DNA of 64,000 bases. Origin: Isoetes taiwanensis (lineage: Eukaryota; Streptophyta; Lycopodiopsida; Isoetales; Isoetaceae). Below the pieces are notes generated by a model. That model saw only the letters and a program-made list of their open reading frames with translations, did no database searches and was not told where the DNA came from. Numbering within the stretch: the first letter of the stretch is position 1; each line of letters begins with the position of its first letter. Below are positions 59 through 37,009 of this stretch, in pieces. The stretch is from NCBI GenBank assembly GCA_021234155.1, contig JAJEKV010000013.1:14485877-14549876 (forward strand). The letters are read 5' to 3'. A program made the position numbers and the translations under genes.

Positions 59-1250
59 ATGAATGCAACTCCACCAATGGCCCGCCTCATTGTAAAAGAT
101 GCAACATGTGCAATCATGCCCGCGGAAGAGTGCACTCGCACTCATCCTACACCTTTCGCAACAAGATGGTTTATCAAGTGCAAACCACACCTCGGCACCA
201 ATCGCAATATCGGCCACCACCGCTGCGCGCAACCCAATCAACTCTATCGACGCGGGGAGCAACAAGCGGGGACCCAACACACCGTCCTCCTTTTGATCCT
301 TCAAAAGCTTCGGTGTTATCGCTGTCAAGAATGGGGTCATACCACCCGCGGCGTGTCCTCAACTTCCACAAGTTCAGGTGCGGCTTCACGGCACAAATCG
401 GACCACATCGGTCCGCCTCACGCGCTTACCAACTTCGGATTGCTAATGGCAAACAAGGGCGTCTGTTCTTGAGGAAGCCACCTCGTGGCGCCTCGGCAAT
501 CACGCCTATCAACCAGCTCCCGCCAATCAACCTCGGATGGATCAACAAGCACGGGAAGAAATTTTTGGGCTCTTAATCCTCGGTCCGACCATCAAATTGG
601 GTTGGTTTGGTTTCACGCCCGCACGTATGCCACGCCCCTTAACCATTATTCCTAATGGCACGCAACTTTGCCTTTGCTTTGTCGACACCATTCCTCATGG
701 CCGAAGCAAAAAGGTTCACTTTGCACCGACTTGGAGAAACTCATGTCGCATGTTATGCCTAAAGTTCGCCAAAGCATTTTGAACCTCATGCAAAGGCGCT
801 GAAGGCCGCCGACGTTGGCTAATGTTCATGCCACCACTAGAGCTCAACAAAGACAAGAAGCACCTTCCACGTCTCAACCTCCACGCCTCTCGGACATATC
901 CAAATATCATTTGCAGAGGTTGACCTACTCAAAAGAAGTTTGCTTCTTTACCACGCGACTCCCTTTTGTGGATCCGGCCGATCTTTTTTTCTCATGTCCC
1001 TCCGGAACTCCAAGAGGAGCTAGCCAAAATCAAAATTCCTTTAAGCTTGGCCACAATTTTGAAACTCTGTCCGCTCTCAAGGACCGATTACCACTCCCCG
1101 CCCCGTTTTGGTTGGGGCTGTTGCTACCTCTACTCCCACGGTACATGCCACGGTGGGCAATCAACAAGTCAATCATGTTCAAATTGGCGGAGGTAGCGCG
1201 GTCAATCTCATCACCGGATAAACTCCGCAAAACAAATGGGCATCAAACAA
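59..1250 (+). pseudogene. gag-like region of the gypsy fossil
   Basis: A zinc-knuckle-like segment (CYRCQEWGHTT) near 312-350 is typical of the nucleocapsid part of gag. The surrounding stretches are proline- and serine-rich and show no other recognisable domain. A short protease-like segment may follow at about 1250-1400. This is fossil sequence. The assignment rests mainly on the knuckle and on position upstream of pol. Confidence 0.5.
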
Positions 1251-2099
1251 CTCTATCGTGCCCCATATGACATCAAATTGGCCAATGGCCATATCACGAG
1301 ACCTCAAGGTGTCACGCCTCTTCTTCACATCAACATTGGTGATCTCAGATTCCCCTTGGAATTTGGTGTTTGGAAGGTGGAGAAGATCCGGTGATTATGA
1401 AATGTTGGTGTGAGACCTTTTCTCCGCCAGCCAAGAGTATCCATTCTTGGGCGACGGATGGGTTAGTCATCACGGATGGTCACCTCAATGCCACCATGGA
1501 CTTGGAAGCAGGCAAAATTATTTCCGTCGACAATCTTTGAACCCTCTCTCTCCGGACACCCAGGTCGGGGGCCCGAGGAATATCTATCAAGTTCGGGCTC
1601 CATCTGCGCGAGTGCGCCTCGTCCTCCTACCCGAATATGCTGATCCTTGGGGAGAAATGACTCTTGTCCGGGACCCGGGGTCGCTTTGCTTGACCCTTAC
1701 GGCTCCTTGCAATCGAATCAACGTGTTGATCACTTTTCAGATCTTTGAACCTCCTGCGGCTCTGTAGATGTACCGCATTTGTCATGCGGCAACCTGCGCT
1801 TGATGAAACTTCGGCAACCTCTCTTTTTCACCCTTGAGTGCCACGCATCTGTTATGCTTCAACCTCCCTGCTCACATTGTCCGGGGACACGGAAGTTATC
1901 CCCATATTCAGACTCACGAAGTCGAGATTGTGGGCGTAGGCAACAATCACCTGTCCGCATTGCGCACATCTTAGACACCATATCGTAACAGGGCCGTCAT
2001 GCTCTTTCAAAAGTTTAAACACATTTTAAGCCTAGAGCTCTGGAGATCTTGGGATCAACAAAACCTTTGGGGAACTCACCATTCCTACCAAGTCCGATG

Positions 2100-3360
2100 C
2101 ACGCCCAGCCTAGCAACGACAAGGACGGCTCAACCCCAATTACCGTGATCGCGTCAAGGCGGAAATTGACAAACTCCTTGCTGCAGGTTTGATCTATGAG
2201 GTCAAACATTCTGAATGGGTGAGCCCCATCGTCATTGCACTCAAACACAATGGTAAGATCCGCGTTTGCGTGGACTACCGAAAACTCAATCAGGCCACGG
2301 AGCGTGATCATTTTCCACTTCCCTTCACGCACCGGGTTCCGGAAGAGGTTCTTTGGACATGAGATGTACTCCTTCATGGATGGTTTTAGGGCTACAATCA
2401 GATCTCAATCAAAGAATCTGATCAACTCAAGACTACTTTCACCACCGGTAGGCACTTTTTGCCTACAAGGTGGTTCCTTTTGGCTTATCAAACTCTCCAT
2501 CCACGTTTCAACGCATCATGCTCTCAGTTTTTCATGATTTTATGAAGGAAAATCCCTTCTTACAAATTTTTCAAGATGACTTCTCTGCCTACAGTTCCAT
2601 GGCTGACCATTTGGATAAATTGGAACTCGTCTTTCAGAAATGTGATGAGTCCGGCATTAGTCTCAATCCGGAGAAATGCACCTTTTGTGTCACCTCAGGT
2701 GTTCTGTTAGGACACGTTGTCAGTAAAGCAGGTATCACCACAGATCCTGCCAAAATCAGTTGTGTGCTCAAAGCTCAAGCACCAGCCAATATCAAGGAGA
2801 CACGCTCTTTCCTGGGTAAGGTCAATTATTACTCCACCTTCATTCCTGGACTAGCAGCCATTGCAGATCCCATTCATAAACTCACGGGTGATGAATCCAC
2901 AGGCTTGAAATTCCCGGTAGGATCTTTCGCTTTCCAACGATTGAAGCTTTTGCTTACTCAGGCCCGGTTCTTGTTCCTCCTCAATGGGACAAGCCCTTTC
3001 ATGTTCATGTCGATGTCACCGGTGTTTGCTATTGAGCTGTTCTTTCTCAAGAATATGATCGCTAATCGATAAACCAAACCGTCGCCGGCCGAAAACTCAA
3101 TTCTGCTGAGCGCAACTATTCTGCCACAGAGCGTGAAGCTTTGGGTCTCATTTTCTGTGTCCAACGCTTCCGTCACTACCTTTTGGGCAGTCAGATCAAA
3201 TTCTTTGTTGACCACCAAGCACTCCTTTATTTGATCAACAAATCCACGCCCACGGGCCGCATTGCTCGTTGGGTCCTTCTTCTCCAAGAATTTGCCTCTT
3301 TTGAAATTGTTCACAAGGCCGGCCAAATCTCATGTTGTCCCGGATTATCTTTCACGCATC
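2100..3360 (+). pseudogene. reverse transcriptase and RNase H region of the gypsy fossil
   Basis: Ty3/gypsy RT signatures are visible: an RVCVDYRKLNQ-like palm entry near 2270, VPFGLSNSPSTFQR near 2470, a decayed FQDD-type active-site segment near 2570, and SFLGKVNYYSTFIP near 2800. These are followed by an RNase H portion with FVDHQALLYL near 3205. Order and spacing fit a gypsy pol. The copy is broken. Confidence 0.85.
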
Positions 3361-3559
3361 CACCACAGATGATCCCTCCACTTTGGAGTCTCGGGACGCC
3401 TTTCGACGCTCAACTCTTTTTAGTCACGGCAACACCACATTGGTTCCATGACTTTCAGCGATTACCTCCTCACAGCTCTTCCACGGAGGACATGACGCTC
3501 TCTAATGCCAAAGCGACAATCCCAGGTCGTCATCAATTTCTCCGCTGACGTCCGCGGAC

Positions 3560-4740
3560 TACACCATGGTTGCGGGACATCTTTACAAAAGGGTAAGGAT
3601 ACCATCCTTCGATTGGCCCGTGTTCTACCTCATGAAGTTCGGATATTGTCAGAAGCTCATCAAGGGCTAGGTGGTGGTCATTTTCATGGTGACACCCACA
3701 AGACGCCAAAATCCTTCTAGCTGGGTATTTTGGCCCACGCTCTTCAAAGACGCCACGCTTCACGCCCCCCGCGTGTGATGCTTGCCGGCGTGTGGGGCGA
3801 CCCGCGACGTGGACGCTCTTCCTTGGACGCCCGGTCGCCACGTCACTTCCCTTCAGCAAATGGGGAATGGATTTTGTGGGACCCATCGATCCTCCTCTGG
3901 CGGCACCCGCGTGCGCTACATTTCTGGTTCTCACCGACCACGCTACTAAATGGGCGGAAGCTTGCGCACTTCCGGACAACAACTGCGGCAAGCCACGGCC
4001 AAGGTCCTCTATCAACAAATTATCACATTAATTTGGCTGCCCCGGAGGCTGAGTCGGGTGATCGTGGTGTCCATTTTATCAATCATACCATCAAGGAGCC
4101 GACGGATTATCTCCGATACATCATCACAAGAGCACACCTTACTATCCTCAAGGCAATGGTTTGGCGAAAGCACCAACAAAACTCGGTCACAATTTCAAGA
4201 AAATTTGTGGACGCTTTCGCCTTGGCCCGGCAAAACAAGCTTCCCATCGTTCTTTTTACAATACTTGTTTCAAAATAGCTACAGTCACACCCCTTCAAAT
4301 TGGTTTATGGTCAAGAAGCTCTCATGCCGTTTGAATACATCCTTCCAACACTCCATTTTCAAGCAAGCACGCCCATAATCCGCCTTTCTTTGCACTCAAA
4401 GAAAGGGTCTATCAATTGGAGCAGTTGGATGAACTTGAAGGGATGCTTATATTCGTGTTCTTCATGGACAACGGTTGCAAAAATCTCTACATGACAAACG
4501 TCCGAAGACAAAAACATTCAAAGAAGGAGATTTGGTTCTTCTTTATGATTCTCGGTACAAAAATTTTCGGGTAAGCTTAAGTTTGATGGCTTGGCCCTTA
4601 TCAAATTGTTCATGTGGTTCAACCCGGCGTTTTCCGGTGGGCTGAGTTAGATGGAACTCCATTACCTACATCGGTTAATGGCTTTAAGCCTCAAAACATT
4701 TCATACCACAAAGCAAGTGAAAATCAACAAAGTCTGATTC
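3560..4740 (+). pseudogene. integrase region of the gypsy fossil
   Basis: A WGMDFVGPI-type start of the integrase catalytic core lies near 3860, followed by VLTDHATKWAEA near 3930. The downstream part resembles the integrase C-terminal segment, with a closing stretch near 4650-4730. It sits directly after RNase H, as expected in gypsy elements. The copy is broken. Confidence 0.75.
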
Positions 4741-4764
4741 AAGGCGCCAAACACAACAGATAGT

Positions 4765-6010
4765 GACTAAAAGCGGTGGCATATTATATTATAGGTGGAA
4801 ATTTTTACAAAATGTGGACCGCCTGACTATTTCGCTATGGGCCCGCCCTATATACAAAAAACGGGCTCGAGCCCTATCTACTAAAAACCTAAGAAGAAAA
4901 ACCCTCTACTCCGGGTTCGGAGCAGAGGTGATGCGGAGGAGGTGGTAGAGGTTCTGCTCAGGGTCCCAGCGAAGGTGCAGAACCACCTCCATCCCGTTGG
5001 TCTTCGGATCGGGATGTTCAGCCATCCCGGCACACCAGCCATCCATTCTCAGGCCACGATTGTGGCAGCGCCAGAGGTCCAGACAATCCATCTTGCAGGT
5101 AATCCACTCCTGACAGTTAGTGGGCATAGTGCAGTTCTCGTTCAAACCAGCAGCAGCCATGCTGAGCGCCATCGGATGTCTTCGCTTCACTCCCAGTTCG
5201 TCTTATATAGCCAACCGAGGAACTCCTTGTCGACGTGGACCAATAAAAAACTCGCCAACGTGTTTGCAATGCAAGGCTGTTTCTAAACTGAGAATCTTTT
5301 CTCCCGCCGCATATCTCGCCATGGTACCCTCTGACACATTCGTTTTAATGATATCCCACTTCGAGTTGCCAGCATTAAATGCCATTGCTTCTTTTCATAC
5401 CCGTCAAACATTAATATGTGTCCTTTGGCCACCTGTCACATCCGATCATTCTCTCACGTCTCATCTCCACCGTTCATTGCTTCTCCCTTTGTTGTTTGGG
5501 GACTTAGCCAAATTTTTGCCTCTCCATCGCCTCCTTGGCATCTTTTCGACATCGGCACCATCCATGGTCATTTGTTTAAGCCCTCATCATACCCCTTCGC
5601 CTCCATTTTGGCGCCCTAAACCTTTTCGACCCTCTGCCTTAGTCCTCCGTTCTTTGCCTTAGTCCTCCGCCTTTGAATCAACTGTTCTTTTTCGCCAAAT
5701 CTTTGCCATGGCTGCACCAAAATTTTCTACACTTCAAGCCTCTTTGCTCGAGGGAACCGGCTCTTTTTCGAAGTCGTATCTTTCTTAGCGCCCACTTTTC
5801 GGTGAAGCCCTTGTTGGCCGAATCGTGTGAAGTCGCGAGCGCCGAAACTTTCACGAATTCTCTCAAATGGAACTTAGGCTCCAAATCACGACCCGGTTGA
5901 AGCGGTTCATCGCTAACATCGTCAACGGCCGCATGGATACACCCACGATGGTCGATGGCACCACCATTTAAGCTGACTCAACACCTGATTTTCAGAGGTA
6001 TTCCATATTC
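4765..6010 (+). other. non-coding spacer inside the gypsy fossil
   Basis: I recognise no domain between the integrase end and the later ORF region. A TATATA-containing stretch lies near 4850 and the 5400-5680 part is rich in C and T. It probably belongs to the element's internal 3' region. Confidence 0.3.
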
Positions 6011-6012
6011 CT

Positions 6013-8500
6013 TTGCAAACCCCTTGTTTATCTTGGTCTGCCATACAGGATCTAGATGTCACTGAGTTTGGTGCACCTCCTTATCACGCCAATGTGCATC
6101 GCCTGACAAATATAGACAAACCCCATGAAACTTTTGTTAAGTTTCTGTGGCGAAAGTTCCTTGGGTATTCTATCAAGAACACCCATATCAATAAGCCTTT
6201 CTATAATATTGTGCTCACTGCTACGCACTCCAACCACCACATTGATTGGCCCCAATTGCTGTTCTACCGTCTTCTCCAAGAAGTGGACCGTCTTCGGGCT
6301 GCCACTTCTATTTCTGAAGTTTCTGTGGGAGGCCACCTTCAAGCCATTATCCGTCATTACTTTCCTCCCACACCTCCTCCTTCTCTAGTTTCCACTCAGC
6401 GGTCCCTTCCTCAGACTCACCAAGTCGGCACTTCACGCCCTTCTTCCTCTGGTCATGTCAAAATTCCGCACTCCCATGTCACTGTCTCCTCCTCCTCCGC
6501 TACAAAATCCAAGCATTCCAGTTCACACCATGTCTCACAAACATCATGAAACCGCAACAGCGCCGGGCTCCACCACCACAGCACCCTCGTCAGCTGTTGT
6601 ATCAGTATCAGCAGGATGCTCAAGCTGCTGTTCTAAAGTTACAAGAATCCCAAGAAACTCTTATGAATGGGGTTCACACGGCCCTGACGGCCTCAGATGC
6701 GGTTCATTTGTGACCTTCAAGCCGCGAATCGCACAAGTTCAAACTTTGGAAGCCCAACTTCAAGAAAAGCGGGGCTCTCTTACAGGGCCGCATAGATCTC
6801 AAAAGTGCGGGGATCAGACCAGCCTACTTGCGGATCAACAGCTCGGCTTCAATCCGAAATTCAGGACTTATTGGAGCAAAACAAGTCCAAAGACACCCTC
6901 ACGGGTGACAAGGAGAAAGATATTGCTAAGCTCGGCGCCTTGTACTCAGAGCTTTGTGACAATTACAAAGCACTCAAGTTCAACACCTTACAGGCGTGGC
7001 GGCTCAAATTGCCTCTTTGGCGGCTCAGCTCTCCCACGGACTTCTCGGCTCACATCCCTCCAAGATCGGCTTACGGAGGTTGAAGCGCGAGAAACTTGAT
7101 GACGCGGAGATTGCCGTCTGCCGACTCAATGCTCTGGGCAATCCTCCTCACGAGGTTAACACTTCACCGAAGCGGGTCCGTGACCGATCCATATACGGTA
7201 GAAAGAACCACGGGATCCGTGACCTCGAACAAGCGGCTACAAAGCCCGCTATTCGGTCTGGCGATGAGGCTCGAACCAAACCGGGCGGCTATATCACCAT
7301 CGTTAGCAACACGCCTTTTGTTGATTTCCCGGTTCCTTCACGCTATCCGGATTATGTGGATGCCCGCCGCCACGTCTTTCTTCCGGTGGCATGGGGCTGA
7401 TGGTCCCGTGGATATTCCATCTGCGACTTGCAGATTTTCTTGATTTGGCCAGAACTCTCTATTGAAGACAAAGGTGTCTGCTGTGCCCTTTTAGTCTTTG
7501 ATCTCATTCACTGCGAAGATCCGGATTTCATCACCTTCAGAGTTGTTTAGCCCATGGCTTACATTTTTCATGATTTCTATCTGAGTGATACACAGGAGAG
7601 ATTTCGGGATGGGCCACCACAGAACTATCAGGGTGACCCCACCCTTCAATGGTTGCTTGGGGATAACAACCCCTACCTGGCTGATCATGCTCAGACACAC
7701 GCTCTTCATCAAGAGTACATGCCTGAGCTTGCACATCATTTACCTCTCTGGCAAGCGGAAGTGCTGCAACAAATAAGGAAGTATCTGGGACATCCTGAGG
7801 ATCTTCCCTATGCACAAATTTATATGCAACACCTCGCCGGTTACAATCAATTACGTGCTCTTCTGGATAGCAAGACAGTCCCCACAGGCTGGGATAGCCC
7901 TCCTGTCAACTCTCAACTCTGCGCCTCATGCGGGATCGTTGGTGTAAAGCTCTTGATCCGGCCCTTGTCGGTGAATTAGGGGAGCGGGTTTCAAGAACCC
8001 AACCCCACGGGCATGGTTCCCTCTCCCTATGCTTTCTGGGTGTTCCTCCACGCCCCAGGTTCCTGACTTCTGATTGGCGTCTCCCCTTTTGGACAAAGGT
8101 CATGGATGGCCATGCTGGATGGACTCCACCTCAGATCTCGACGGATCTCCGGTGGGATCCCCGTTTTGTTCGCCGCTCCCATTGGGAGGAGGGTGCCACT
8201 CTTGATAACACCACGAATTGGATCTATATTGCTAATGAGCGTGGTTGGCAACGCCCTGCTGATGCGCTACATGGTCTTGACACCTTCTTGCAGAATGCCG
8301 CCACCTCACCAGATCCTTCAGTCCACCTTCAAGCAGGTTTTTGTGCTGCTCTAAAATGCATCTTGCTCAGCTCCTTAAATCGGCAGCGTCCATTTTTTTT
8401 TTGTCAGAATCCGAATGTCGGTGCCTTGGCCTCCGTGACTTTGCTCATGGAATGTCGGTTTGTTTCTTCCGACGCCCATCTTTGCCCTTGAAGACATGGT
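6013..8500 (+). pseudogene. extra 3' ORF region of the gypsy fossil (unknown product)
   Basis: Long protein-like stretches run in the same direction as pol. The first (from ~6013) contains HETFVKFLWRKFLGY. It is followed by a Ser/Pro/His-rich segment (~6360-6550), a helical, charged, coiled-coil-like segment (~6840-6980), and a stretch near 7550-7900 containing RKYLGHPEDLPYAQIYMQ. I cannot name the product. Its place between pol and the polypurine tract fits the additional ORFs known from Tat/Athila elements. It could instead be captured sequence. Confidence 0.45.
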
Positions 8501-9885: not shown

Positions 9886-11408
9886 ATGTGAATGTCCTTC
9901 AACGATGGTTTAAAGTTTTTGTTTTCTCTCACTTTATTTATGCCAATATTTTTTAAATGTATTGTTTTGCATGTACACTCCTAGCAAAATGCGTCGCTCT
10001 TGCAAAACAACTTTGGCACCTCGTACATATTCGAGGTAAGCATTAAAGTTTTCATACGCTAATAAATTTTCAATGCTTTATTTAGGTTACATAAAATTTG
10101 GGGAGATTTGGGCAAGGGCATGGTCGATTCCACTTTGAGTGAAGGGGACTACGTGTTCGGGATCCAAGGTCACTGTATTGGTCATTGTGGCTTATTTATG
10201 TGAACGTCCTTCAACGACGTTTTAAAGTTCTTTTTTCCTCTAATTTTATTTAAGCTAATATTTTCTAATCATTGAATGTATTGTTTTGCATATATACTCC
10301 TAACAAAATGCATTGCTCTTGCAAAACGACTTTGGCACCTCGTATATATTTCAGGTAAGCATTTAAGTTTTCATACACTAATAAATTTTTAATGCTTTAT
10401 TTAGGTTAAAGAAAATTTGGGGAGATTTGGGCAAGGGCATGGTCGACTCCACCTTGAGTGGAAGGGACTAGGTGTCCTGCATCCAAGCTTACCGTATTGA
10501 TCATTGTGACTTATTTACAATTTGTATTTCAATAATTAATTTTGAAATCTATTTTCTCAATAACTACTATATTCCATGAAATAATTTGGATTCGATAATA
10601 ATTTTTGATACTTAATTCTAGTTTTTTGGAATTTCTTATGATGAATGTGAATTCTTTGTATTTTTTCAATAGTCAATTGAATTTCTTATGATTATTTGAT
10701 TTTTTTATACTTAATATTAAGTTTTTTCTTATGATAAATGCATTTTGTTTTTGATTTTTTCAATGAAGGAATTTTTTATGATTAATTTAAATTTATAGTA
10801 TTATTTCTATATTTGTTTATTGATTATCAATCTTTTTTCCATACGTATTCATATTAACATGTATTATTTTTTCTAAATTATGTCACTTTTTTTCTATTTT
10901 TTTATAATTTTTAAATATATTGTACGTCGTTTAACGACGTTGCTAACATGTCCTGCACGTGCATGTGCCACGTAGACAGTCGATGTCTATGTGGCAATTA
11001 AACCCCCCCCCCCTTTTTTAATAAAGGTGACATCGTTGAACGATGTTACACGCGGACATGACGTAGGTGCCACGATGGTGGCGCTTAGTTTAGCATTGGC
11101 ATACGTGTGGCACTGCCACGTATGCAACGTCGTCTAATGACATTGACAGCGTGGCGTCATGCTGGTGTCTACATGGCGCGGTGAGCACCTACCGCGCTGG
11201 CATAGCTGACGCCACATGTACGTGAAGTCGTTAAACGACGACTTTTGGACGTTTAACGACGATGCAATTGCGATGAGTATATCGACGACTGAACCTCGTT
11301 TAAGAACGTTTTGACGTTGTTATAGACGTAGTTTAACGACATCGTGTCATCGTTCATCGATGTTTCAATGACGTTCAGACGTCACTATGGAAGAATGATT
11401 TTGTAGTG
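9760..11408. mobile_element. CACTA-like (EnSpm/CMC) DNA transposon terminus, non-autonomous or truncated
   Basis: The right end reads, on the minus strand, CACTACAAAATCATTC, starting at 11408. CACTA is the diagnostic terminus of this superfamily. The inner 500 bp hold many CGTCGTT/AACGACG motifs in both orientations (near 10925, 11030, 11128, 11224, 11250, 11330), as in CACTA subterminal repeats. Related motifs at 9770 and 9842 suggest the element extends left to at least there. No matching left CACTA end and no transposase were found, so the left border is a guess. Confidence 0.6.
9885..10510 (+). repeat. ~310-bp tandem duplication inside the CACTA-like element
   Basis: Two adjacent copies begin with TATGTGAAYGTCCTTCAACGA (about 9887 and 10196) and run through a GGGGAGATTTGGGCAAGGGC block near 10100 and 10415. 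They are similar but not identical. Neither contains an ORF. Confidence 0.8.
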
Positions 11409-12110
11409 TAAGCTATTCTGCAAATAAAGTCAAATATTAGGACCTCCACGACCAATCAGCCTCTTAGATCTCCGCAATCTAGATCTCTATAACCTTAAGC
11501 AAGAATGCTTTTAACAAGGTTGCATTTGAAATGGGAGTGTTGCACAACTCCCGTTTCAAAGATTCCCTCAAAAAAATATGGCATGCTCCTAGAAGTGAAC
11601 TTTTTGGCCGAGGTAAAGGATTTCCTTAGGTTAAATTTTTCTTTTTTTACGTTTTGGCTTCTCAGCAGGTGTACACGTTTCTTTTGTGTAATATCACAGC
11701 TGAAAAGAGCAAAATTTATAGTTGACTATACAATCCATGAAATGAAGACTTCAGAAACATCTTAGTTTAAAAAAATTAATAACCGTAGCATTAATATGAA
11801 TTTTGAATACATCAATTTTGAAGGAGAAGTTAATGTTAACACTAGAATGCTACAGACAACAAGTATAACTTCGAAACCATAATATTCTTGATTGTTTCCT
11901 TTTCTGTCACTTGTTAGCTGAAAAGAGCAAAATTAACAGTTGACTGTGTAATCTAGACAAGCAAGACCTAAAAAATACCAAAATATGATAGGAATAAATA
12001 ATAATAATAATAAATTAAATTTTCAATATCGGTTTTAGAAGATACGTTAATGATAATGTTAAAAATGTTTCACACAACGAGTCAAAGATCAACATCATAA
12101 TCTTCCTCAT
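11409..12110. repeat. AT-rich spacer with a hairpin and a diverged duplication
   Basis: A ~36-bp inverted repeat at 11525-11560 has arms TTTGAAATGGGAG and CTCCCGTTTCAAA. A diverged direct duplication starts with GCTGAAAAGAGCAAAATT near 11700 and 11918. No gene is seen. The arm CTCCCGTTTCAA recurs exactly at 17589-17600, beyond the DUF7869 gene. Confidence 0.5.
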
Positions 12111-12138
12111 TGTGTGTGCTTGTAGTTGCAATATTCTC

Positions 12139-13306
12139 CTAAACCGTTTTCTCTAGCTCAGGTGACTTAACATGCACTTTAGAAGTGTTGTCTTCAGTTT
12201 CCACTACTAGAGCCACTTCCTTCAACTCTGCAAAAGTGATCTCATCCTCTATGGAGCTAGTAAAAGGCGGCTGTATTTCTGATGATGTCATTTTGGTGAA
12301 ATCCGATGAGGACTTGGCACCTAACTCTTGATTATCGTCTGGTAAATTAGGTAATGCAACCAATCTCATCTTAATGAAGTTCACAGCCTCCTTATCTATA
12401 TCCACTGCCACACAGTTGCAGCCCTTCTTAAGTGCATAGGCTATGGTAGTACCAGAGCCCGAGAAAGCATCAAGTATCCATCTCCTTGACGTGAAAACAT
12501 GTCAATAAGATGGTTGATTAGCTTCTGGGGCTTCTGATAGTGATTGACGATTCTACCCTGCGCATTTGGATCCTTCAGCTTCTGCAACACTGCTAGAAAC
12601 TCTAAGACATTGGAGAAGTCAGAGCAGCCAGTAGTGTTGAAGTGCTCCATTGTCCTTTTGCCGTCAAAGCTCCAGTAGGCAACATGAAGGTATTCTACCT
12701 TGCTTAACAACCAGGGGCCTCAAGCATAGTAATTTATGTTTGTTTTGTACCTTTGAAAGAAAAGTGTAGTTAGCAATCTAGCAACTAGAAAAGAAGTTTA
12801 CTATTCCAGAATAGCAACGGAAAGAAGTTGTATTCCAGAATAAAGACTCACCAAACTAAATTCTCATAGCCTGCTTGAGCAGGGGATCCGATATGATTTT
12901 TTAAGCTAGCTTCGACCATCCCTGCTTGCATACTGGAGTGGAACACCACCAACCACCAGTGTTTAGCCGTTGTTATCTGCTTCAGACCATCTATGAAACT
13001 ATTGAACTCAGAGTTCCTGAAAAGTAGGTCGTCATAATGGTTGTCCTTGATTTTAAATCCGTAAGGTATGTCCGCAATAACTAGGGTAAAATTCTGCGGC
13101 TTGATAGTTCCCACCAACTTAGTGCAGTCGCCTTGAACGATTGAAAAAAGATTGTCTTGATCAAACAAGGTGAACTTCTCATAGTCGGAGGGTTCAAGCG
13201 CTAACTGTCTCCTATCAGCTAAGGTCCGTTCTTCCTGTGCAAGCTTCAAAAGATGCATAAAACCTTCTGGAAGGTCTTTGTTTTTCTTCTTGTTTTGCAC
13301 ATGCAA
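12139..13306 (-). pseudogene. N6/N4-type DNA methyltransferase domain exons
   Basis: IVQGDCTKLV and LVIADIPYGF (~13150-13050) correspond to the gD...l and catalytic D/S/N-P-P-Y motif. ILDAFSGSGTT and CVAVDIDKEAVNFI (~12480-12370) correspond to the S-adenosylmethionine-binding motif I and the following acidic strand. The motif order, catalytic before SAM-binding, fits the PF01555 class. An Asp at the first catalytic position is commoner in adenine-N6 enzymes, but specificity cannot be read from this. The second position is Ile instead of Pro. Confidence 0.7.
12802..12842. promoter_or_regulatory. two TATTCCAGAATA sites in a methyltransferase intron
   Basis: TATTCCAGAATA occurs at 12802-12813 and 12831-12842, inside the intron after the catalytic-motif exon. 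It equals the core of the 28-bp palindromes at 15464-15575. Confidence 0.5.
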
Positions 13307-13523
13307 TTGAAATTAGTTTTTTGATAAATAGTTGAAGGAAAAACGAAGGTCACAAAGTAAAAAATATACACAGCCTTCAAAATTGAGAGCATATTGTATA
13401 ATACGCTCATCTGAAGTGGCCACCGGGTAGAGCTCCTTGCATCTTTCCCACGTTTGCACATTCAATTGCTCCATCAAGCATGTCTGGCATGCAATGACGT
13501 TCTTTTGGCTGTTTAAACAAACG

Positions 13524-13593
13524 TATTCCGAAATACAGTTGAGTTAGAAGATTCACAAAAATCAAGCAGAAGGCAGTAACGTATTCCAGAATA
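13524..13593. promoter_or_regulatory. two TATTCC-GAATA sites in the next intron
   Basis: TATTCCGAAATA at 13524-13535 and TATTCCAGAATA at 13582-13593 lie between the linker exon and the preceding exon. They are one base and zero bases from the intronic consensus. Confidence 0.45.
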
Positions 13594-13826
13594 CACTAAA
13601 CTTACTTGCGCAATTCCTTGGACTCTCTTCCACGGTGAACTCCTTATCAACAACCATCTGGAGCAGCCTTTCAAGAATGGCGGTGTCGGTAAAGCCCTGC
13701 AGCTCCCTCCAAACTGTAATTGTCATTTCTTTTTTTGGCACGTCCGTGCCTTTTTTCTTTTCAGAGGCTTTTCCTTTGCTTTTAAATTCTCCGCGCTCAA
13801 ATGCAGTAAATATTTCACAATACACT

Positions 13827-13902
13827 GCATCCCGGAATACACAATACTAAGTTTCCATGCAGAAAAAACAGAATACTTGAGAGCGAGAGCTATTCCAGAA
13901 TA
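13827..13902. promoter_or_regulatory. one full and one partial TATTCC-GAATA site next to the ParB exon
   Basis: A full TATTCCAGAATA is at 13891-13902 and a partial ATCCCGGAATAC at 13829-13840, both in the intron just downstream of the ParB-like exon. Confidence 0.4.
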
Positions 13903-13915
13903 CAAACGTTCTTAC

Positions 13916-14555
13916 CCTGCCATCCTTGAAGGCAAGTTGAAACCAATTGTCGTGGCTAATCAAAGAGTGCCTCTTATTAGCTTCATCATATTTGAGGCAG
14001 CACGCAATTGCGCACGATTCCTTCAGCTCTAGATATGGCACAGGTTTTTTGAGGTCATCACCATATTTTTCTTTAAAAATTAAGTACTCTCTGTGCATAA
14101 ACCTTATTTTGTCAACAAAACTCATCTTGAGTTTGTAGTCGTTATCGGTGTTGTGTGTATTGGCCAATATCTTTGCCTCTTCGTCAGCCAGGCCGCAATA
14201 CACAGCACAGAGAACAAAGAGGTATCTCGGATTTTGTTTTTCTTTAAACAGTTGCATGCATGCCTTAAAGCTATAGTTCCCACCCAACACATAGTGTGTG
14301 TACTGATCAGCACACTCTTTGTCATAATCTGCCAGGTCCATGCACTGGCTCCTGTCAACAAGCACTACTATTGGAGCAACATGGGCATTTGGATTTATCC
14401 GGGCCTTCAAGTTTCTGACATGATCAGCATAGATTTTTCTTACTTGAAGTGGCCTTTCTCCAGTCTCATCTTTTGGTGGCAGTTTCATACAGGTGACAGG
14501 AAGATAAATAACACCTTGCACGTATTTGTGCTGGTTTATTTCTTCCATTCTCTCT
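13916..14555 (-). pseudogene. ParB/sulfiredoxin-like domain exon
   Basis: Segments in ParB order: a helix ending HVRNLKARI, then APIVVLVD (box I-like), then YVLGGNYSFKACMQL at the place of the GxRR-xxA box II, then AVYCGLADEEAKILAN, like the conserved lsdeEa..lA..eN helix. The classic GERR arginines are replaced by GGNYSFKA, so CTP hydrolysis as in chromosomal ParB is doubtful. The fold suits DNA binding or nuclease-like ParB relatives. The exon ends at a good donor at 13915/13914. Confidence 0.65.
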
Positions 14556-14574
14556 GCAGTTTTGTCAAAAAAAA

Positions 14575-15283
14575 AAAAAAATCTTTTATGGCCACCCTTG
14601 GGGCCTTTCCTTTTTTCTTTCTCTTCCTAATTGATTCTTCAGGTGCGTCCTCCACTGTAAGCTGCACGGTTTTCCTTTTCTTTGACTCCTTTGCAGCCAC
14701 AGTTTGTCTTTGCTTTTTTGGTGGTGGTGGTGCTTCCTGTTCAGATTCCTCGGACTCAGCGTCATCGTCCTTACCACCAGATTCACTACTACCATCTCCT
14801 TGTCCTTCTTCTTCATCTTCAGAAGCACTGTAGTCTAGTGCTTCACTTTTGCTACTGGAAACCCTAGTCAGTGTAGTGGACAACGCTTGCTTGTTCATGT
14901 AATGGGCACAGTACTTGTACAGGCATTGAGGCTGCACTTTGACAAGCTTGAAGCATGCTTCATCGACGACGATAAAGCCGTGTGATGTTCGGAAGGACAG
15001 TCTTGGCTGTTGCTTGAACTGCCCAACAACAGGTTCCACGGTCTGTATAAAGCCCATGCACTCAAACTCTGTGTCATCACGCCTTTTTTGGCCCGGGCTA
15101 CGACAAACATACAAGAAAGTAATGTTGCTGTACTTTTCTGCAAAACCTCGTGTAACAAACCACTGCGTTTGGAAGTTTTCGTAAATCTTTGGCGCAGCAG
15201 TCTCCTGTCCTTGTTCAACTGCAGGTTTTCTGCTTGTGATCTTGATAGTTCTCTTTGGCTTGGGGATACTTTGTTCTTGCCTG
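14575..15283 (-). pseudogene. N-terminal exon: unknown domain plus acidic/basic low-complexity tail
   Basis: The frame opens directly after a TTTTGCAG acceptor and stays open for over 230 codons. The front ~115 residues look globular (IYENFQTQWFVTRGFAEKY, then LYVCRSPGQKRRDD). A run of acidic residues with Ser and Gly follows, then PPPPKKQ and clusters such as SKKRK and RKRKKK, which are candidate nuclear localisation signals. The globular part matches nothing I know. Confidence 0.6.
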
Positions 15284-15336
15284 CAAAAGTACAGTTGTTA
15301 ACAACAATAGAACTAGCTAAAAGAAACAGAACACTG

Positions 15337-15348
15337 TATTCCAGAATA
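15337..15348. promoter_or_regulatory. TATTCCAGAATA site upstream of the first recognised exon
   Basis: A full copy of the palindrome core, ~55 bp upstream of the acceptor of the N-terminal exon and 116 bp from the three-palindrome array. Confidence 0.45.
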
Positions 15349-15463
15349 AAAAGACAAACATCTGGTATTAAAACATACAAAAAATAGTCTGTTTGAGCTA
15401 AAAGAAAGGCTAATTATGCTCTAAATTTACGGTTTTATTAATGAAAAAAGAGCTCTCATAAGG

Positions 15464-15575
15464 CCAAAGTGTGTTCCGAAATACACTTTGGCTACTACCA
15501 AAAGGCCAAAGTGTATTCCCGAATACACTTTCGCCTTTAGCGTTCAGCCAAAGTGTATTCCGGAATACACTTTGG
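15464..15575. repeat. three 28-bp palindromes at 42-bp spacing between divergent genes
   Basis: The third copy (15548-15575) is a perfect palindrome: CCAAAGTGTATTCC followed by its exact reverse complement. Copies at 15464-15491 and 15506-15533 differ by a few bases. Start-to-start distance is 42 bp in both intervals, four helical turns, so all sites face the same side of the DNA. The array lies between the minus-strand ParB-methyltransferase gene and the plus-strand DUF7869 gene. This is a layout expected of protein-binding sites (operator-, parS- or transposase-site-like). Function is inference. Confidence 0.75.
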
Positions 15576-15668
15576 CCTCTACCAGGACATAGGTCAAAAA
15601 AAGTAAGTTCAAGTTCTTCATTCTCGTACTTGCATCATATAATTGTTTTGACCTGCTTTCTTCAACAG

Positions 15669-17240
15669 ATATTGTGCAACAGAAGCTTGCTAGACACCGT
15701 GACCAACAAGGAGCTGAGAGAAGGAAGCTTGCTAAGCATAGGAAAAAATCTCTTGAGCGTCCACTTGAGTACATGTCTGTTGTGATTGATGGAATGGATC
15801 AAAAAAAGACAACTCTCCCTCATTTCTTGAATATTCCAAAAGATGTGCCAGAAGAATGCTTTTTCAAAGTCCACCTTGTAGGAGTCGTGGTCTTCACTGG
15901 GAGTCTAAAGTGCAAAGTCTTCTTGATATATCCTAATTTGCATGGTGATCCGAACCTCACAATTACAATTCTTGACAAGGTTCTTCGTGAGCAACAGCAG
16001 TTACCACCAGTGCTCTACCTGCAACTTGACAACACTACCAGGGAGAACAAAAATCAAACACTCTTTGCTTATTGTGCCATGCTAGTGGGGCTAGAGATTT
16101 TCAGAAAAATAAAGCTCGGATTCGTATTGGTAGGGTATACACACGATCAAATAGACCAGATGTTCAGCAGGTTTTCGGTAGGAAAAAGGCTTTTTGTCTT
16201 CCCATTTTGATTCAAATTATTGAAGACTAGTGGTTGAGTTTCTAAAGGAGACTGCCGACTTTAGGGAATTTATTTTCTCTCAACGTGCAAACAGAGAACA
16301 CGCTGTGAACAAGCTAAATGATATTACATTTCAACATCACATCAAGTTCTACTTGAAGAATAGAGAGATTTTTTTGCAGGGAAAGAAGTACACTACAACT
16401 AAAGAGTGGAGTCTAGTAGAGGAATTGCGCTTCCTTAAATCTATTCCAGACACTTGTTTGATGGAACGTGCTGAGCAACTTCCTTTAAAAAATCCAAAAG
16501 TGTCAAGGCAGCAGAAAAGTACCCCAGTTACTTCCTTGAAATCCATAGAAAATGGAATTTCCATAGGTTTGAAGTACTTCACTGAAGAAGACCAAATGTA
16601 GTGGAGAGGCTTCTTTCTAGAACAAAAGACTGTGATTCAGAACCTAGCTCTGAGGCTTTTGAGTGGCCTAATGCTTTCCACCAACCACAGGACCAAGTAG
16701 GTCCAAGCAATGCTGCAATAGCAGCTGCAATACAGGAAGATGAGGATCGAGTCATGTACCTCGGACCAAGACGCAAGAATGAGCCTGCAGGTAATTTCTC
16801 AGAAATTACCAAAGGTATTTTGATTGCTCTTCCAACTGAGGAGGATGAAAAAGAGAGACCTTTTTGGATAGCCAAAGTACTTGACACAATCAAAGAGGAA
16901 GGGTTGGTGACTAAACTCAAGATTCATTGGCTTGCTACACGTTCAGAAAATGCTTTTGAAGGTAGGTATGAGCTAGAAATGAGAAGTCAAGGAAAGGGCA
17001 AAAAGGCCAAAAAAGTCGGATGTAGGGATGACTAGACTTAGACAAGTGAGTATTCTGTGCTATGATTTCAAATTGAAATCAGACAATCGTTTACGCCAGA
17101 GAACAATCAACTTGCTTAGGAAGGCTTGTAACTACGAAGAAGAAGATGAAGAAGAGGTTGGGAATGCTTCACCCTCTATTGATAGTGACGAGGGAGATAA
17201 CTCAAACACTTCCTCAAGTGACAGTGAAAGAAGTGACTGA
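15669..17240 (+). pseudogene. DUF7869-family gene, probable transposase, decayed
   Basis: The first visible exon opens after a CTTCAACAG acceptor at 15668 and carries the family's hallmarks: VVIDGMDQ (~15785), a PNLHGDPNLTITILDKVL block (~15935), LQLDNTTRENKN (~16020) and a THDQIDQMFSRFS segment (~16140). Later pieces (16230-16600, 16601-17035, 17028-17240) hold PFWIAKVLD and IHWLATRSENAFEG, a C-terminal module usual in these proteins, and an acidic Ser-rich end. The family is multicopy in seed-free plants and invertebrates. Its spaced Asp/Asn/His residues suggest an RNase H-like transposase, but that is inference. A donor GTAAGT at 15603 suggests an upstream exon, yet the usual N-terminal half is missing. 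About three frame changes or stops break this copy. Confidence 0.7.
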
Positions 17241-17660
17241 CGAAACGAGCATGAAGATGTCTTGGATCCCTCTCTTATCACTCCTCACACTTTTGCACAT
17301 AACTGAGTCTTAGGAAAAAAGAAGTAAAATTTGAATGTGAATATGAAGATTTTATTTTCAATTTTGAAAATACTATTCAATTTTCGGTTAAAATTTATGT
17401 TCTCTTAAATTAGAGGTTTGCTCTAAAAAGATAATTTAGGCAAATTATAATTGCTAAAAAAGGTGTCACTTTGACATAGTTAATTCTCTATTTGAAGAAA
17501 AAAATTAGTGCTTTTGGGGGGTCAAAATACACTTTTATGCCCCCTTTTTTTCACCTCATTTCACCTCATTTTAGCCATATTTCGTTTGCTCCCGTTTCAA
17601 TGATTTGCTCCTGTTTTAAATGCAATCTTGTTTTTTGCGGTTTTCGTATTCAGGCCAGGA
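17241..17660. other. 3' flank of the DUF7869 gene with possible element end
   Basis: AT-rich flank. CAAAATACACTTTTATG at 17523-17539 contains a half-site (AATACACTTT) of the palindromes, between runs of G and C that could pair. CTCCCGTTTCAA at 17589-17600 equals a hairpin arm at 11548-11559 and is the near reverse complement of 11526-11537, making these positions candidate ends of one mobile unit. Confidence 0.3.
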
Positions 17661-31508: not shown

Positions 31509-32104
31509 ATTATATGATTATGGCGGACAGCACCATGGATCATGTGGTCGATTTCCAAATTGGTGAAGAACAATTGGAATCAGATCACTGCCCATGCACT
31601 GCTCACACTCCACGCTAATCATACAAATCTGAAGCCGAACTCACACACATGCTAGGGATATCACATGAGGGTCAGCTTGCACAGTTGCTATCGGGCTAAT
31701 ATAGAATCTGAGCCACAATCTATTACTCGGGCTGCAGACATATCCACATCTAGTCAACAATTCAGTGCTTTATTATTAGATCTCGCTAAAGAGGTTTTTA
31801 CCTCAAAATGTGTTGTGAAAGGATTGCCATGTAGATAATGGTATGATCATACATGCAGAGATGCTAAGCGGATATGGCAGAACAGTCAGGGACCTCTTAA
31901 AGACCAATGTAAAAAAGCTTATAGAAAAATAGTGAGGCAGAAAAAAGGACAATTCATCTATTCAAGACAGGAAGAGCTTTGCCAAAAATACATATCAGAA
32001 CCAAAAAGCTTTTGGAGCATGCGTCAGAAAGTTCGCCAGAGTGAGTTTCCTCTCACATCTGACATCTTATGAAAACATGTACATGATCATACCATCACCC
32101 AGCA

Positions 32105-34049
32105 ATGTTGAATACAATAGAGCATAACATAAGGTCAGATCTCGTGGTCACTACAGAGGAAGTGTTAGAAGGCATCAACCGCTTAGCACAAGGAAAAGCA
32201 AAGGACATCCAAGGATTATGTACCGAGCATCTTAAATGGGCAGGACAGAAAGTGTGTCCTATCCTGGTAGATCTGTTTACAAGGGCTCTTGCGCAGGAAT
32301 TTCCCATAGCAGCCAGTCGAGTAGTACCAATCCATAAAGGTGGATCTACCAGTGACGCCAATAACTACAGAATTATTTTAGTTCGTAGTTTGTTGCCAAA
32401 ACGTCTTGCATCTATTCTGAAAACTAAAACCAGTACCTGGGCTGAGACCAATAACAAGAGGGCTAAATCGCAAGCTGGTTTTAGGACTGGACGCTCTACA
32501 TTAGATCAGCTATTGGTGCTAAAAACAATTCTAGATACAGTGAAGGGGACAAAAAAACCAGCATATGTTGCCTTTGTTGATTTTAAAAAGGCCTTTGATA
32601 AAGTGCCTAGATTTCAACTATGGGATAGAATGGATAAGCTCAATATACCGAAACCGTCACAAGAAGCAGTACAGGTACTATATGAAAAAGTGCTGGTGCA
32701 GCTATCTTTTCCGTTGTCACTAGACAATCCAGAATACATTGATAGTAACAATGGAGTCAAGCAAGGCTCTGTTTGGACTATTCATTGATGGCATTGAAAA
32801 ATGGTTACATGACAATTGTCCAGAAGGCACAGTGCTTCATGGTTTTGTAGTGCAGTTGCTAATATATGCGGATGATGTAGTCATCTTTGCTCGTTCTGTG
32901 GTTTCAATGCAGCGGCATTTAGATGGGCTTGCTCGCTTTTGCGGCGCTACTGGGATGGAAGTAAATCTGAAGAAAACAAATATTATGACAATAGGAGCAC
33001 TCGAACAGGAATGTTCTTTCAGATACAAAAATAATTTGGTAAGTCCTTGTGATTCCTATAAACATCTAGGGCTGATCTTTCATAGAAATCACAGATGGAA
33101 TATTTGCATTGCCCAGAGGATTGATGGCAGCCACAAGGCTCTTTATGCCATGCAAAGTTTGTGTAGAGAACCACACTATGGTCATGAAAAATTAAATAAA
33201 GGTTGTTTGAATCATTGGTACAAAGTGTAGTCCTATATGGCAGTGAGGTTTGGGGGGCTAGTATCTCACAAGGTTTATAGGAGGATGTTGAATAAGATTT
33301 TAAAGAAATTTATAAGGCTTGAGTTGGGGATTAAAGCCCAAATACCTTACCCGATGATGTTGACTAAGTGCAGGCTATTACCTTTGGAGGGAGAAGCCAT
33401 GATAAGATGTATATGATTCCAAAAAAAAAAAATGCTTCAAATGGACGACACCCGGCTCCCCTACAAGGCTCTTTTAGCCAGCAGAGATAGGAGATGGTTC
33501 CAAGATGTCATTAGCTGGCTTGGGAAATGGGATATCCAATGGGAAGAGGCAATCTTGATGGAGACAAACCTAAGACAATGTGTCTATGATAAGGTCCAGA
33601 GGAAGATGTGGTTGCAGCCTAAGACAAAGATGATCCTCTATAGACAACATATGAATCCTTGGAAGATAACATCTCAATCAAGAAAAGACATGCGTTGGGC
33701 AGAATTCATCTTAGTTCACATCTCAATTAGGTGTGGAAACCGGAAGATGGAGTCACATCATCCCTAGATCTGGAAGATATTGCAAGATGTGGTGAAGAGC
33801 AGGTGGAAGACGAAGAGCACAAATTACTTAGATGTGGGGCCTATTATTTATTGCGAGCTCAGCATGGCATTCAAGCTGAAAATCTTCAGACCTTTTTCTC
33901 CATGGAGGGAGAGAATTGAACTTCTACAGTCCAAAGAAATTTGTTTCAAAAGATTGAATAGTCTTCTTGAAGAAGATGATATATTGAGTGAGAGTGACGA
34001 GCAAGATGAGGATGCTGAGACTCATTTGCTCTTTTATGATTGTGTTTGA
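32105..34049 (+). pseudogene. LINE ORF2 reverse transcriptase and C-terminal region (second copy)
   Basis: It holds the thumb/palm entry PIHKGGSTSDANNYRII (~32330), SQAGFRTGRSTLDQLLVL (~32467), FVDFKKAFDKVP (~32573), GVKQG then LFGLFIDGIEKW across a frame change (~32755-32805), and YADDVVIFA (~32860). The C-terminal part ends at 34049 with an acidic tail. This copy keeps the RT front half that is missing at 27.4-27.6 kb. Confidence 0.85.
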
Positions 34050-34682: not shown

Positions 34683-36420
34683 ATCATAGAATAGAATAGA
34701 ATAGAATAGAATAGAATAGAATAGTTTTTTTATCGTCCACTGAGACCAATCGGCCTATGGGACCCAGAAGGAGCGCAGCAAACTTATTACTGTCCGGGTT
34801 AAAAAACCCCCGCCCCGAAGGGTTTTTGAGGGAAAAACCGTGGCAGTAATAAGAATGCTGTCAAACTGTACAAGTATACATCATCATGAAATAAATGTGT
34901 ATGTACATGTCAAGTGCGTGCCCGAGGACATAGCTGATCTCGCATGTCCATGACCTCCTGAAGGTATGATCCTAGCATCCGCATGACGGATGCCGTGCTC
35001 AATGTCACATGTAGCTGCCGGCGGGCGACCAACTCAAAGATAGCGCGTCCGGATTTGATCATATGCCGGGCAACTTTGAAGGGTATGAGATTCATCCTCA
35101 TGACTCCCATTTGGCGGCATTGACGAGCACGTCACGCGGGCTCACCAATCCATCCGGCTCGTCTCAATTCCGAAGATGATGTGCCCCCCGCGAATGGAGG
35201 CAATGAGTCTCCGCGTCTTTTCATGGGCAAGTGGGTGCGCAGTAGCATTGTGGGCCTCGTTCCAATGTGGGATTTATGTGGCGCCGGTAGTGTCTTTGTC
35301 TTTGACTGCTCAAGGGCGGCGGCATCCCAAAGCTTGCTGATGAAGCAAGCGCCAAGATATTGCCTCAAGCTATGGCGACCGCCTCTGTTTGCACATGTAT
35401 GCACCCGTGCTCCCGCACATTCCATCTAGCCATCCATTGAGCTCTCTTTTCCCTCCAAAGAGGCCTTGAGGCATTGTGGCCCCATTGCCATGATATAAGC
35501 TAGTTTTGGGAGACGAGCATCGTCCATGTTGACCACCTTCTCAAAATAGACAATGTGGCGATCAAGGGCCGCCCTCTGAAGAGGCAAGAATCCTGTTTCC
35601 TGCAGTAGAATTTGATATGGGACTGTGGACTTCACCCCCTAGTGCTCGTACCAAGAAGGCTTTCTCGCAGACTGCCCAAGTCATTCCAAGTAGCGAGGGA
35701 TACTACTGGGCCCCATACTTCAACCGTGATAAAAGGACAAAGTTCCACTAAGACTTTGAACAGGTATGACTGATGGGTCCAATCATACAACTCCGCTCTA
35801 TGACTATTGTTTTGCATTGCATATAGTGCTTTCCAGCCCGCAGTAACTTCAGTAGCCCGTATGGATGTGTCCCAAAGGCATAGTAGACGGAAACTCCACT
35901 CCCAAATATTTGTATGTGGATGCTACTTCCACATTACGCCCTCGAAACGGAAGGAGGGGATCCTACCGTCGCGTGAAGATGATATGAAAACCACCTTAGT
36001 CTTGGACAAGTTGACGCCAAGATATCGGGCCGCTTGACAAAATGTGTCCAGGGCATCGAGATGTCGTTGCATGTCTGCTGGTGTGTAAGCTAGGAGGTCC
36101 ACATCATCAGCATATATTAACTGCTTGATGATCTGGTAGAGAAGGTGAGCCCCGTCGCCCCCATTATCAGCAAGCCAGCTCTCCAATTGATCAATGTAAA
36201 GCCCAAACAATGTTGGGGAGAGAGGGCATCCCTGGCGAACCCCGATACTACCATCAAATGGTTGGCTTGTCGGCTGCAACCGACCCGAGCATCTTTCATA
36301 AAGCCTGTACACTGCATTCTGCAAATCTACCGGAACCCCCAGCTGTCGCAATCTTGCCCATAGTTTTTCCCGAGGCACAGTGTCGAATGCCTTTGCAAAA
36401 TCCACATAAGAAATCATTAA
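34683..36420 (-). mobile_element. 5'-truncated LINE, minus strand
   Basis: RT motifs on the minus strand: VDFAKAFDTVPREKLW (~36400), GVRQGCPLSPTLFGLYIDQLE (~36240) and LIYADDVDLLAY (~36110), followed by the C-terminal region with VPYQILLQETGFLPLQR (~35620). The 3' end at 34731 runs into a (TATTC)n tail, read as (GAATA)n at 34683-34725 on the plus strand. The copy starts abruptly in RT at ~36420, typical of 5' truncation. The main RT frame (36417-35923) is open for 164 codons, so this copy is younger than its neighbours, though later parts are broken. Confidence 0.85.
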
Positions 36421-37009
36421 TATTAACTCAAGTAGTTATTGGAAAATGAAGAAGTTAGTGATTTTCAATAAGAGTATGATGGCCAACTTGTGCTAAATGG
36501 AAAGGCGAGTACGTATTACCCCAAAAATGGCACGGGAAATACGACATGGAGTATATATATATGATAAAATGGAAATGTGAATTGCCACATGTGCTCTAAT
36601 TGGCTATAGGTTGAATTACATGGATAGGTATTGAGCTCACCACACCATGCCTCACTCTCTCACCAACATCATATTTCACTCCACAAAATTGTCAGCACAA
36701 CTAATCTTCACATTTAAACAGGTCAACTCCATGCCCCCTTGCTCTATTCCATACCCCCTTCTAAAAACGTTTTTCTACTCTATATTCTATTTTAAAAGTT
36801 CCATACTTTATCTTCTCCTTATCTGCGATTATAGAAGTACACAATTCAAATTCCACACTCCCTCTTCTCCTTATCCACGAGTGTAGAAGTATACAATTCT
36901 ATTTACTATCGCAAGATGGCAATGACCGGTAAACGCGTGATTATAGTTTGACCATTGGGCGAGTTGGGTGTAATAGAGGGGGTAAGGGGCAAGGTTAAAT
37001 GTATTTAGA
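36421..37009. other. AT-rich intergenic, nothing recognised
   Basis: No coding or transposon signal. A near-repeat CTTCTCCTTATC-GCGA/CACGA...TATAGAAGTACACAATTC occurs near 36810-36850 and 36870-36900. Confidence 0.45.

Follow-up and report, generated by a model that had tools for sequence, protein, structure and literature searches.

A 64,000-nucleotide stretch of the lycophyte Isoetes taiwanensis (contig JAJEKV010000013.1, positions 14,485,877 to 14,549,876; the whole stretch is called the window below) contains, at 11513-17632, a decayed DNA transposon with two genes placed head-to-head. One gene encodes a protein of the DUF7869 family, presumably the transposase. The other is almost certainly an accessory gene of the transposon, and its predicted product joins a ParB-like region to a DNA methyltransferase. 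Why would a transposon carry such a protein? The best overall explanation, to which we give a somewhat better than even chance, is that the accessory protein would recognize the element's own DNA and methylate it. The original prediction for this locus had described a plant gene fusing the two domains and supposed that it was either carried by, or domesticated with, a mobile element. The first part of that supposition has held up. The second has not: a domesticated host gene was rejected in favor of an accessory gene, now decayed, that belongs to a cut-and-paste transposon.

A decayed transposon and its relatives

The ends of the window copy were located as the best inverted pair among the flanks searched (terminal inverted repeats [TIRs] in Table 1), with a score of 17, which lies within the range of shuffled sequence (40 shuffles, mean 14.8, maximum 19). 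The pair was counted because its head resembles that of related copies, because the head pattern, written after both ends had been seen, has a single occurrence on each strand of the 64 kb (at 11513 and 17632), because the subterminal block TTCAAAGATTCCC (11555-11567) recurs at a similar offset in the left end of relatives, and because TTTT is found on both sides. Scores equal to that of the TTCAAAGATTCCC block occur elsewhere too. Inside the element, the DUF7869 remnant begins opposite residue 303 of an 873-residue relative, so its N terminus, about the first 300 residues, is missing. Sixteen aspartate, glutamate, or histidine residues, including those of IDGMDQ, QLDN, and HDxID, are invariant among the window and seven relatives, and we read them as a putative signature of a DDE/D-type transposase. 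A search by family found no DUF7869 in phage record L001 or in 14 control genomes.

Where do the relatives come from? When GTDB contigs were scanned with the DUF7869 exon, seven confirmed loci were returned, all in one metagenome-assembled genome (MAG), that of an uncultured Trichormus sp. Trichormus azollae (Nostoc azollae) is a cyanobacterium living in the fern Azolla (PMC6786969). The contigs are taken as probable Azolla DNA binned with the symbiont, because the genes have introns and one contig carries a retrotransposon integrase. In this MAG, the window methyltransferase has 14 matches, the ParB-like region 10, and DUF7869 8, the last comprising seven open frames of 873 to 924 residues and one of 529. 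All five contigs with both genes (L046, L047, L051, L052, and L053) have them head-to-head, as does the window.

The accessory gene of the window can be read from its translations as spanning 15280 to 12139, interrupted by about five introns. All motifs that the original prediction quoted are present, on the minus strand and in the stated order, namely, APIVVLVD (14354-14377), YVLGGNYSFKACMQL (14249-14293), ADIPYG, and FSGSGTT, and the claim that both regions belong to one eukaryotic, intron-bearing gene is supported by the relatives. In L009 (584 residues) and L011 (594 residues), the counterpart of the window's N-terminal region, the ParB-like region, and the middle region share one open frame, and the methyltransferase exons come after it. 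Across the seven copies measured, six have the ParB-like region in an uninterrupted frame of 562 to 594 residues, and L051 has 278. The window gene is damaged, a point that the original prediction did not mention. In addition to the stop listed in Table 1, a run of 15 T's near 14575 shifts the frame, the frame changes again near 12480-12500, and the frames of exons 3 and 4 do not match at their junction.

Mobility is best documented by L009, the contig of L047. Its element, with ends derived by comparing copies, spans 391-8114 (7,724 bp) and has inverted ends and AACA on both sides. Excising it together with one AACA restores a 360-residue frame of a retrotransposon pol gene. The right part of that frame contains integrase domains (PF17921, E 1.8e-23; rve, E 6e-10); the left part, which had no Pfam match, is interpreted as the tail of an RNase H region of Ty3 type. 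The three marks of cut-and-paste transposition, i.e., TIRs, a target-site duplication, and an empty site, are thus found together in this copy. A point on the other side is that L046 and L051, two of the three two-ended copies, have both ends and no matching duplication.

Could two unrelated elements or genes simply have come to lie side by side, with the ParB-like and methyltransferase regions as separate genes? The window copy, with its frame breaks and with both genes lacking 5' exons, would allow it. Against this stand the shared ends, the empty site, the order and orientation common to all five relatives with both genes, and the single open frame of L009 and L011. Chance placement and separate genes were rejected on these grounds, and we regard them as exceedingly improbable.

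Table 1. Features of the transposon copy in the window
Feature	Positions	Strand	Basis or remark
Whole transposon copy, 6,120 bp	11513-17632		Inverted ends, TTTT on both sides, gene content and order of relatives
Left TTTT of 4-bp target-site duplication	11509-11512		Low complexity, weak alone
Right TTTT of 4-bp target-site duplication	17633-17636		Next to right terminus
Left TIR	11513-11537	+	Head resembles relatives' AACACG(A/T)TTGCG
Right TIR	17608-17632	-	21 of 25 positions as in left arm
DUF7869 gene remnant	15670-17240	+	PF25273, E 3.7e-37; frame breaks
ParB-like/N6-N4 DNA methyltransferase gene	12139-15280	-	Broken; 5' exon not found
N-terminal region with acidic and Lys/Arg-rich tracts	14580-15280	-	Window translation
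ParB-like region	14078-14512	-	Alignment with relatives, profile comparisons; no PF02195 match
Methyltransferase motif IV, ADIPYG	13058-13075	-	Window translation
In-frame TGA stop in methyltransferase gene	12720-12722	-	Translation
S-adenosylmethionine (SAM)-binding motif FSGSGTT of methyltransferase	12445-12465	-	Translation and PF01555 match
Three palindromes (each about 32 bp, one of them perfect) at 42-bp spacing	15461-15578		Between genes, where relatives have arrays
Single shorter palindrome	15336-15349		Upstream of first exon seen
Two shorter palindromes (13827, 13890)	13827-13903		In or at edge of intron; acceptor unsettled
Two shorter palindromes (13523, 13581)	13523-13594		Intron
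Two shorter palindromes (12801, 12830)	12801-12843		Intron

Several observations concern the surroundings of these elements. Just left of the window copy, 10925-11380 holds repeated inverted repeats of the GTCGTTTAACGAC type and resembles another small element. Reverse transcriptase remnants lie at 2452-3545, 32087-33227, 35926-36435, and 37647-39615, one with RNase H and one with zf-RVT. The window gave no Rfam match at gathering scores and no hit in a tRNA scan. Among the relatives, complex direct and inverted repeats begin just beyond the left end of the copy in L046 and fill a block of 4.6 kb (10952-15592), and in L053 (6023-7580) the element's 3' end has undergone a tandem duplication of 775 bp with 91% identity. 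The GTDB cyanobacterial MAG, G001, appears to hold eukaryotic, probably Azolla, transposon contigs (C142, C204, C259, C294, C299, C326, C358, C425, C433, C437, C447, and C473), and such contigs could mislead gene searches.

The accessory protein

The methyltransferase half is the more easily recognized. PF01555, with a curated cut-off of 26.7 bits, matched the last piece of the window gene alone (E 3.4e-7, 30.9 bits) and the concatenated exon translations, with an X at each break (E 4.7e-14, 53.3 bits), so that this half of the predicted fusion stands far above chance. Six related contigs (C142, C204, C259, C294, C358, and C433) also pass the cut-off. In the PDB, the best sequence matches are to MboIIA, CcrM, and RsrI, and motif IV of the window aligns with motif IV of CcrM; the motif IV exon alone reached E 0.86 at best in the PDB. 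Enzymes of this class are expected to have motif IV as [DNS]PP[YFW], ahead of the SAM motif FxGxGTT. The window has the expected order, with DIPY in place of that motif IV, and ADIPYGF is present in all eight related contigs with a methyltransferase match. By its PF01555 match, the accessory protein includes a predicted beta-class N6-adenine/N4-cytosine DNA methyltransferase.

What about the ParB-like half? The predicted ParB domain survives as an order of motifs and as profile similarity below threshold; the PF02195 match that would go with it was found neither in the window pieces nor in the joined exons or the relatives. An alignment of the region with its relatives retains, in order, conserved positions that we take to be ParB landmarks. 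In NCBIfam, the only match to the window piece is the ParB family TIGR03764 (E 0.014, subthreshold), the PHROG named ParB-like partition protein matches one relative (E 0.062), and DUF6551 is weakly matched by three of the five alignment members (best E, 0.021). Profile comparison with hhalign, from which the decayed copy L054 was left out, gave E 0.0048 over 111 columns against a broad ParB set (n = 30), with a reported probability of only 7%, and none of 100 column shuffles reached that score. Against a mixed set (n = 8, four of them methyltransferase fusions), one of 100 shuffles did so.

Other results weigh against the ParB assignment. In addition to PF02195, every curated cut-off leaves the ParB label below it. 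Against a mostly chromosomal ParB set (n = 16), 14 of 100 shuffles reached the hhalign score, and with the broad set the window alone scored 22.3 while a profile of the relatives only scored 13.4, the level of the shuffles. The best PDB match by sequence to the ParB-like alignment had E 0.42. AlphaFold2 models were uninformative, with a predicted local distance difference test score of 37.6 for the exon alone and 41.6 for the exon with four relatives, and Foldseek searches of the PDB with structure models returned nothing at E ≤0.001. Might the region then be some other DNA- or protein-binding module that mimics the motif order of ParB and lacks its fold? The unmatched PF02195, the weak best matches, and the poor models are what such a module would give. 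The landmarks in order and the broad profile that no shuffle equaled speak for ParB, as does the fact that a protein of the same layout in Ectocarpus was independently named ParB-like (PMC12477816). We consider the mimic improbable and the region probably ParB-like.

The original prediction also implied that the enzyme had been gained horizontally. An origin from phage or bacteria is plausible, bacterial ParB-methyltransferase fusions having the same motif order. Against PHROGs, the last of the window pieces led to methyltransferases and no piece to anything named ParB. In phages, tblastn with the methyltransferase gave weak matches, with 21 to 47% identity among the matches listed and mostly annotated as DNA methyltransferases, and the ParB exon gave no match; four phage neighborhoods around methyltransferase matches had no annotated ParB. 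In IMG/VR, tblastn with the ParB, DUF7869, and methyltransferase exons found no relative.

How strictly has the protein been kept? Copies were chosen by the strings GGSHSAE, IDGMDQ, and ADIPYGF, and those without these strings went uncounted. The ParB-like exon (seven copies, 278 shared codons) is 85 to 92% identical, with a nonsynonymous divergence (dN) of 0.059 to 0.129 and a synonymous divergence (dS) that exceeds 2 in 2 pairs and is undefined in the other 19 of 21. DUF7869 (seven copies, 862 codons) is 57 to 86% identical, with dN of 0.078 to 0.375, dS of 0.66 to 2.65 in 13 of 21 pairs, and dN/dS of 0.068 to 0.128. The methyltransferase motif IV exon (eight copies, 69 codons) is 74 to 90% identical, with dS defined in 1 of 28 pairs (1.64). 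By these figures, constraint on the accessory protein has been no weaker than that on the presumed transposase.

Palindrome arrays and a proposed self-marking system

The window contains 10 GTATTCCNGAATAC-like palindromes with at most two mismatches in its 64 kb, all of them at 12801-15568, where 50 mononucleotide shuffles of a 5-kb region gave a mean of 0.08 and a maximum of 1. Three are the cores of the longer palindromes between the two genes, six lie in introns or at an intron edge, and one lies upstream (15336). In relatives, arrays with a different core, TCGATRC-NNN-GYATCGA, occupy the same place. They occur in 9 of the 10 relatives that clearly reach the intergenic place, or 9 of 11 if L054 is counted, a decayed copy without an array that may reach it (homology ends at 588); L049, which stops short of it, was left out. 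The sites with at most two mismatches number 2 in L046, 5 in L047, 4 in L048, 10 in L052, 15 in L053, 4 in L006, 3 in L007, 7 in L050 (3 with at most one mismatch), and 3 in L005 (each with two mismatches). A search for palindromes of any sequence, with arms of 11 or more, recovered arrays in the window and in L046, L047, L048, L052, L053, L005, L006, and L007, though none in L050; it found a few palindromes elsewhere in L046, L048, L051, L053, and L054 and one elsewhere in the window, at 10981. The core, common to eight of the nine arrays, has outlasted most neutral similarity.

The spacings of the sites also tend toward multiples of 10.4 bp. The 45 values below 75 bp group around 31, 41, 51, and 62, and the 24 per-copy distinct values have a periodicity of R 0.78 at 10.3 to 10.4 bp that none of 5,000 uniform draws reached, one spacing of 127 bp in L050 being left out; the values are not independent, because the copies share ancestry and duplication enlarges the arrays. 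The shorter spacings in the window introns (29, 58, and 63) fall outside this test.

How might these parts work together? The palindromes would be dimeric sites, all facing one side of the helix, for recognition by the ParB-like region, and binding would load the methyltransferase onto the element's own DNA, at the promoters and, in the lineage of the window, also along the introns. The methyltransferase would modify adenine or N4-cytosine there, specificity coming from the ParB-like region and the mark being written by the methyltransferase. The mark might regulate both promoters and keep the element expressible against host silencing, as VANC does for VANDAL. That the palindromes are candidate binding sites of the accessory protein is fairly likely, and methylation of the element by intact copies is predicted with about the same assurance. 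A purpose in anti-silencing or self-regulation, suggested by analogy, we hold only tentatively. More doubtful still is the most far-reaching version, in which a bacterial partition-type module and a methyltransferase would have become a self-marking system of land-plant transposons, binding helically phased palindromes in the promoter common to both genes (in some lineages in introns as well), placing N6-methyladenine (6mA) or N4-methylcytosine only on their own element, escaping silencing, and co-evolving as protein and palindrome so that each family would mark itself alone.

A number of results run counter to this explanation. Both genes of the window copy are broken, and that copy is nonfunctional. 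Motif IV reads DIPY instead of DPPY. The palindromes of the window and of the relatives have no core sequence in common, and the relatives' introns are without palindromes. L051 has no array at the intergenic place and a single weak site inside the ParB-like region. On the first of the palindrome points, the ParB-like region is about 40% identical between window and relatives, and the palindrome sequence differs there too.

Might the palindromes instead be sites or enhancers for the DUF7869 protein or for host factors, with the accessory protein acting elsewhere, for example, at the element ends? Transposases often bind repeated internal sites, and the array sits in the upstream region common to both genes. 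The arrays are central, however, and not subterminal, the GTATTCCNGAATAC sites of the window spread across the introns of the methyltransferase gene with none in the DUF7869 part, and palindromic symmetry fits a ParB-type dimer; we therefore rate this alternative as rather unlikely. Another possibility is that methylation times transposition, as Dam methylation does for IS10/Tn10, in place of countering silencing. The retention of a DNA methyltransferase gene next to that of a presumed transposase, with strong constraint on both, would suit such timing, whereas no motif common to the element ends and the palindromes was noticed, no dedicated test having been made. Timing seems to us unlikely, and self-recognition with self-methylation remains the explanation that we prefer.

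Some further features of the palindromes and introns are worth recording. In two or three introns (window 12745-13920), the palindrome starts about 10 to 12 bases past the splice donor. At the site of the intron that follows the ParB-like exon, L009 and L011 have an open frame, and the exon 3 acceptor of the window is unsettled. Palindromes may have given rise to the introns or spread together with them. The palindrome center is CG or CC in the three intergenic window copies and CA in five of the seven others (12801-15568), and the CA centers may reflect decay of methylated CpG.

Comparison with known systems

How new is such an element? The original prediction knew of no comparable fusion in a land plant, and that much stands: searches of open-license papers recognized no case of a ParB-methyltransferase transposon in a land plant or fern, and the literature searched had no mention of DUF7869. 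What is not new is the fusion in a eukaryotic transposon, already published for Ectocarpus (see below). The bacterial fusions (L086, L089, L092, and L093) share with the accessory protein the order of ParB region, DPPY, target region, HPTxK, and FxGSG. They differ in being single frames of 433 to 512 residues with a PF02195 match and DPPY, whereas the protein here has DIPY, a longer N terminus, and introns.

Sola elements make a target-site duplication of 4 bp. The present element shares that length with land-plant Sola, though the Sola accounts, in the parts available, mention no accessory gene (PMC9033089, PMC6786969). The element could be Sola1, because more SOLA elements are reported from Azolla than from Salvinia (PMC6786969), and Sola1 is listed for Physcomitrella (PMC9033089).

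The VANC proteins of Arabidopsis VANDAL elements offer a second comparison, made on the arrangement of arrays only. They, too, are transposon encoded, and they are sequence specific: the short motifs that they bind form repeats within introns and in upstream regions, co-evolving with the protein (PMC5735166; PMC10398659). As far as the account used goes, VANC is no methyltransferase, and it binds 8- to 9-mers in the same orientation as opposed to palindromes (PMC5735166). Whereas anti-silencing has been demonstrated for VANC, it is only a supposition for the ParB-like/methyltransferase protein.

As for adenine methylation in plants, a survey of 6mA argued, in the part available, that the AMT1 pathway was lost in land plants (PMC12695648). 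The enzyme here belongs to another family. If the reading is right, a transposon would make an enzymatic DNA mark other than 5-methylcytosine in a land-plant nucleus, and a transposon-borne adenine/N4-cytosine methyltransferase could explain or confound reports of 6mA in land plants.

A close likeness is to Sola1-1_Ec32 of Ectocarpus, for which the ParB-methyltransferase fusion in a transposon was published, with green and red algae also cited (PMC12477816). The likeness is one of layout: a single accessory protein combines a ParB-like region with an N4C/N6A methyltransferase, and its gene lies within a DNA transposon and runs counter to the transposase gene (PMC12477816). The present element has the same three features, namely, both regions (ParB by similarity), the opposite orientation to the presumed transposase, and a place inside the element. 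Sola1-1_Ec32 is from a brown alga, measures 21.5 kb, and encodes a protein of 1,104 residues (PMC12477816), whereas the elements here measure 6 to 8 kb and their presumed transposase is recognized only as DUF7869. That a ParB-methyltransferase lets transposons bind and modify their own DNA was proposed for the algae (PMC12477816). That account, as far as available, names no binding site, and no word beginning with "palindrom" appears in its main text. The elements described here supply a candidate site, the palindrome array, which has a conserved place and a core that is recognizable despite mostly saturated synonymous sites, and the idea of self-binding thereby becomes directly testable.

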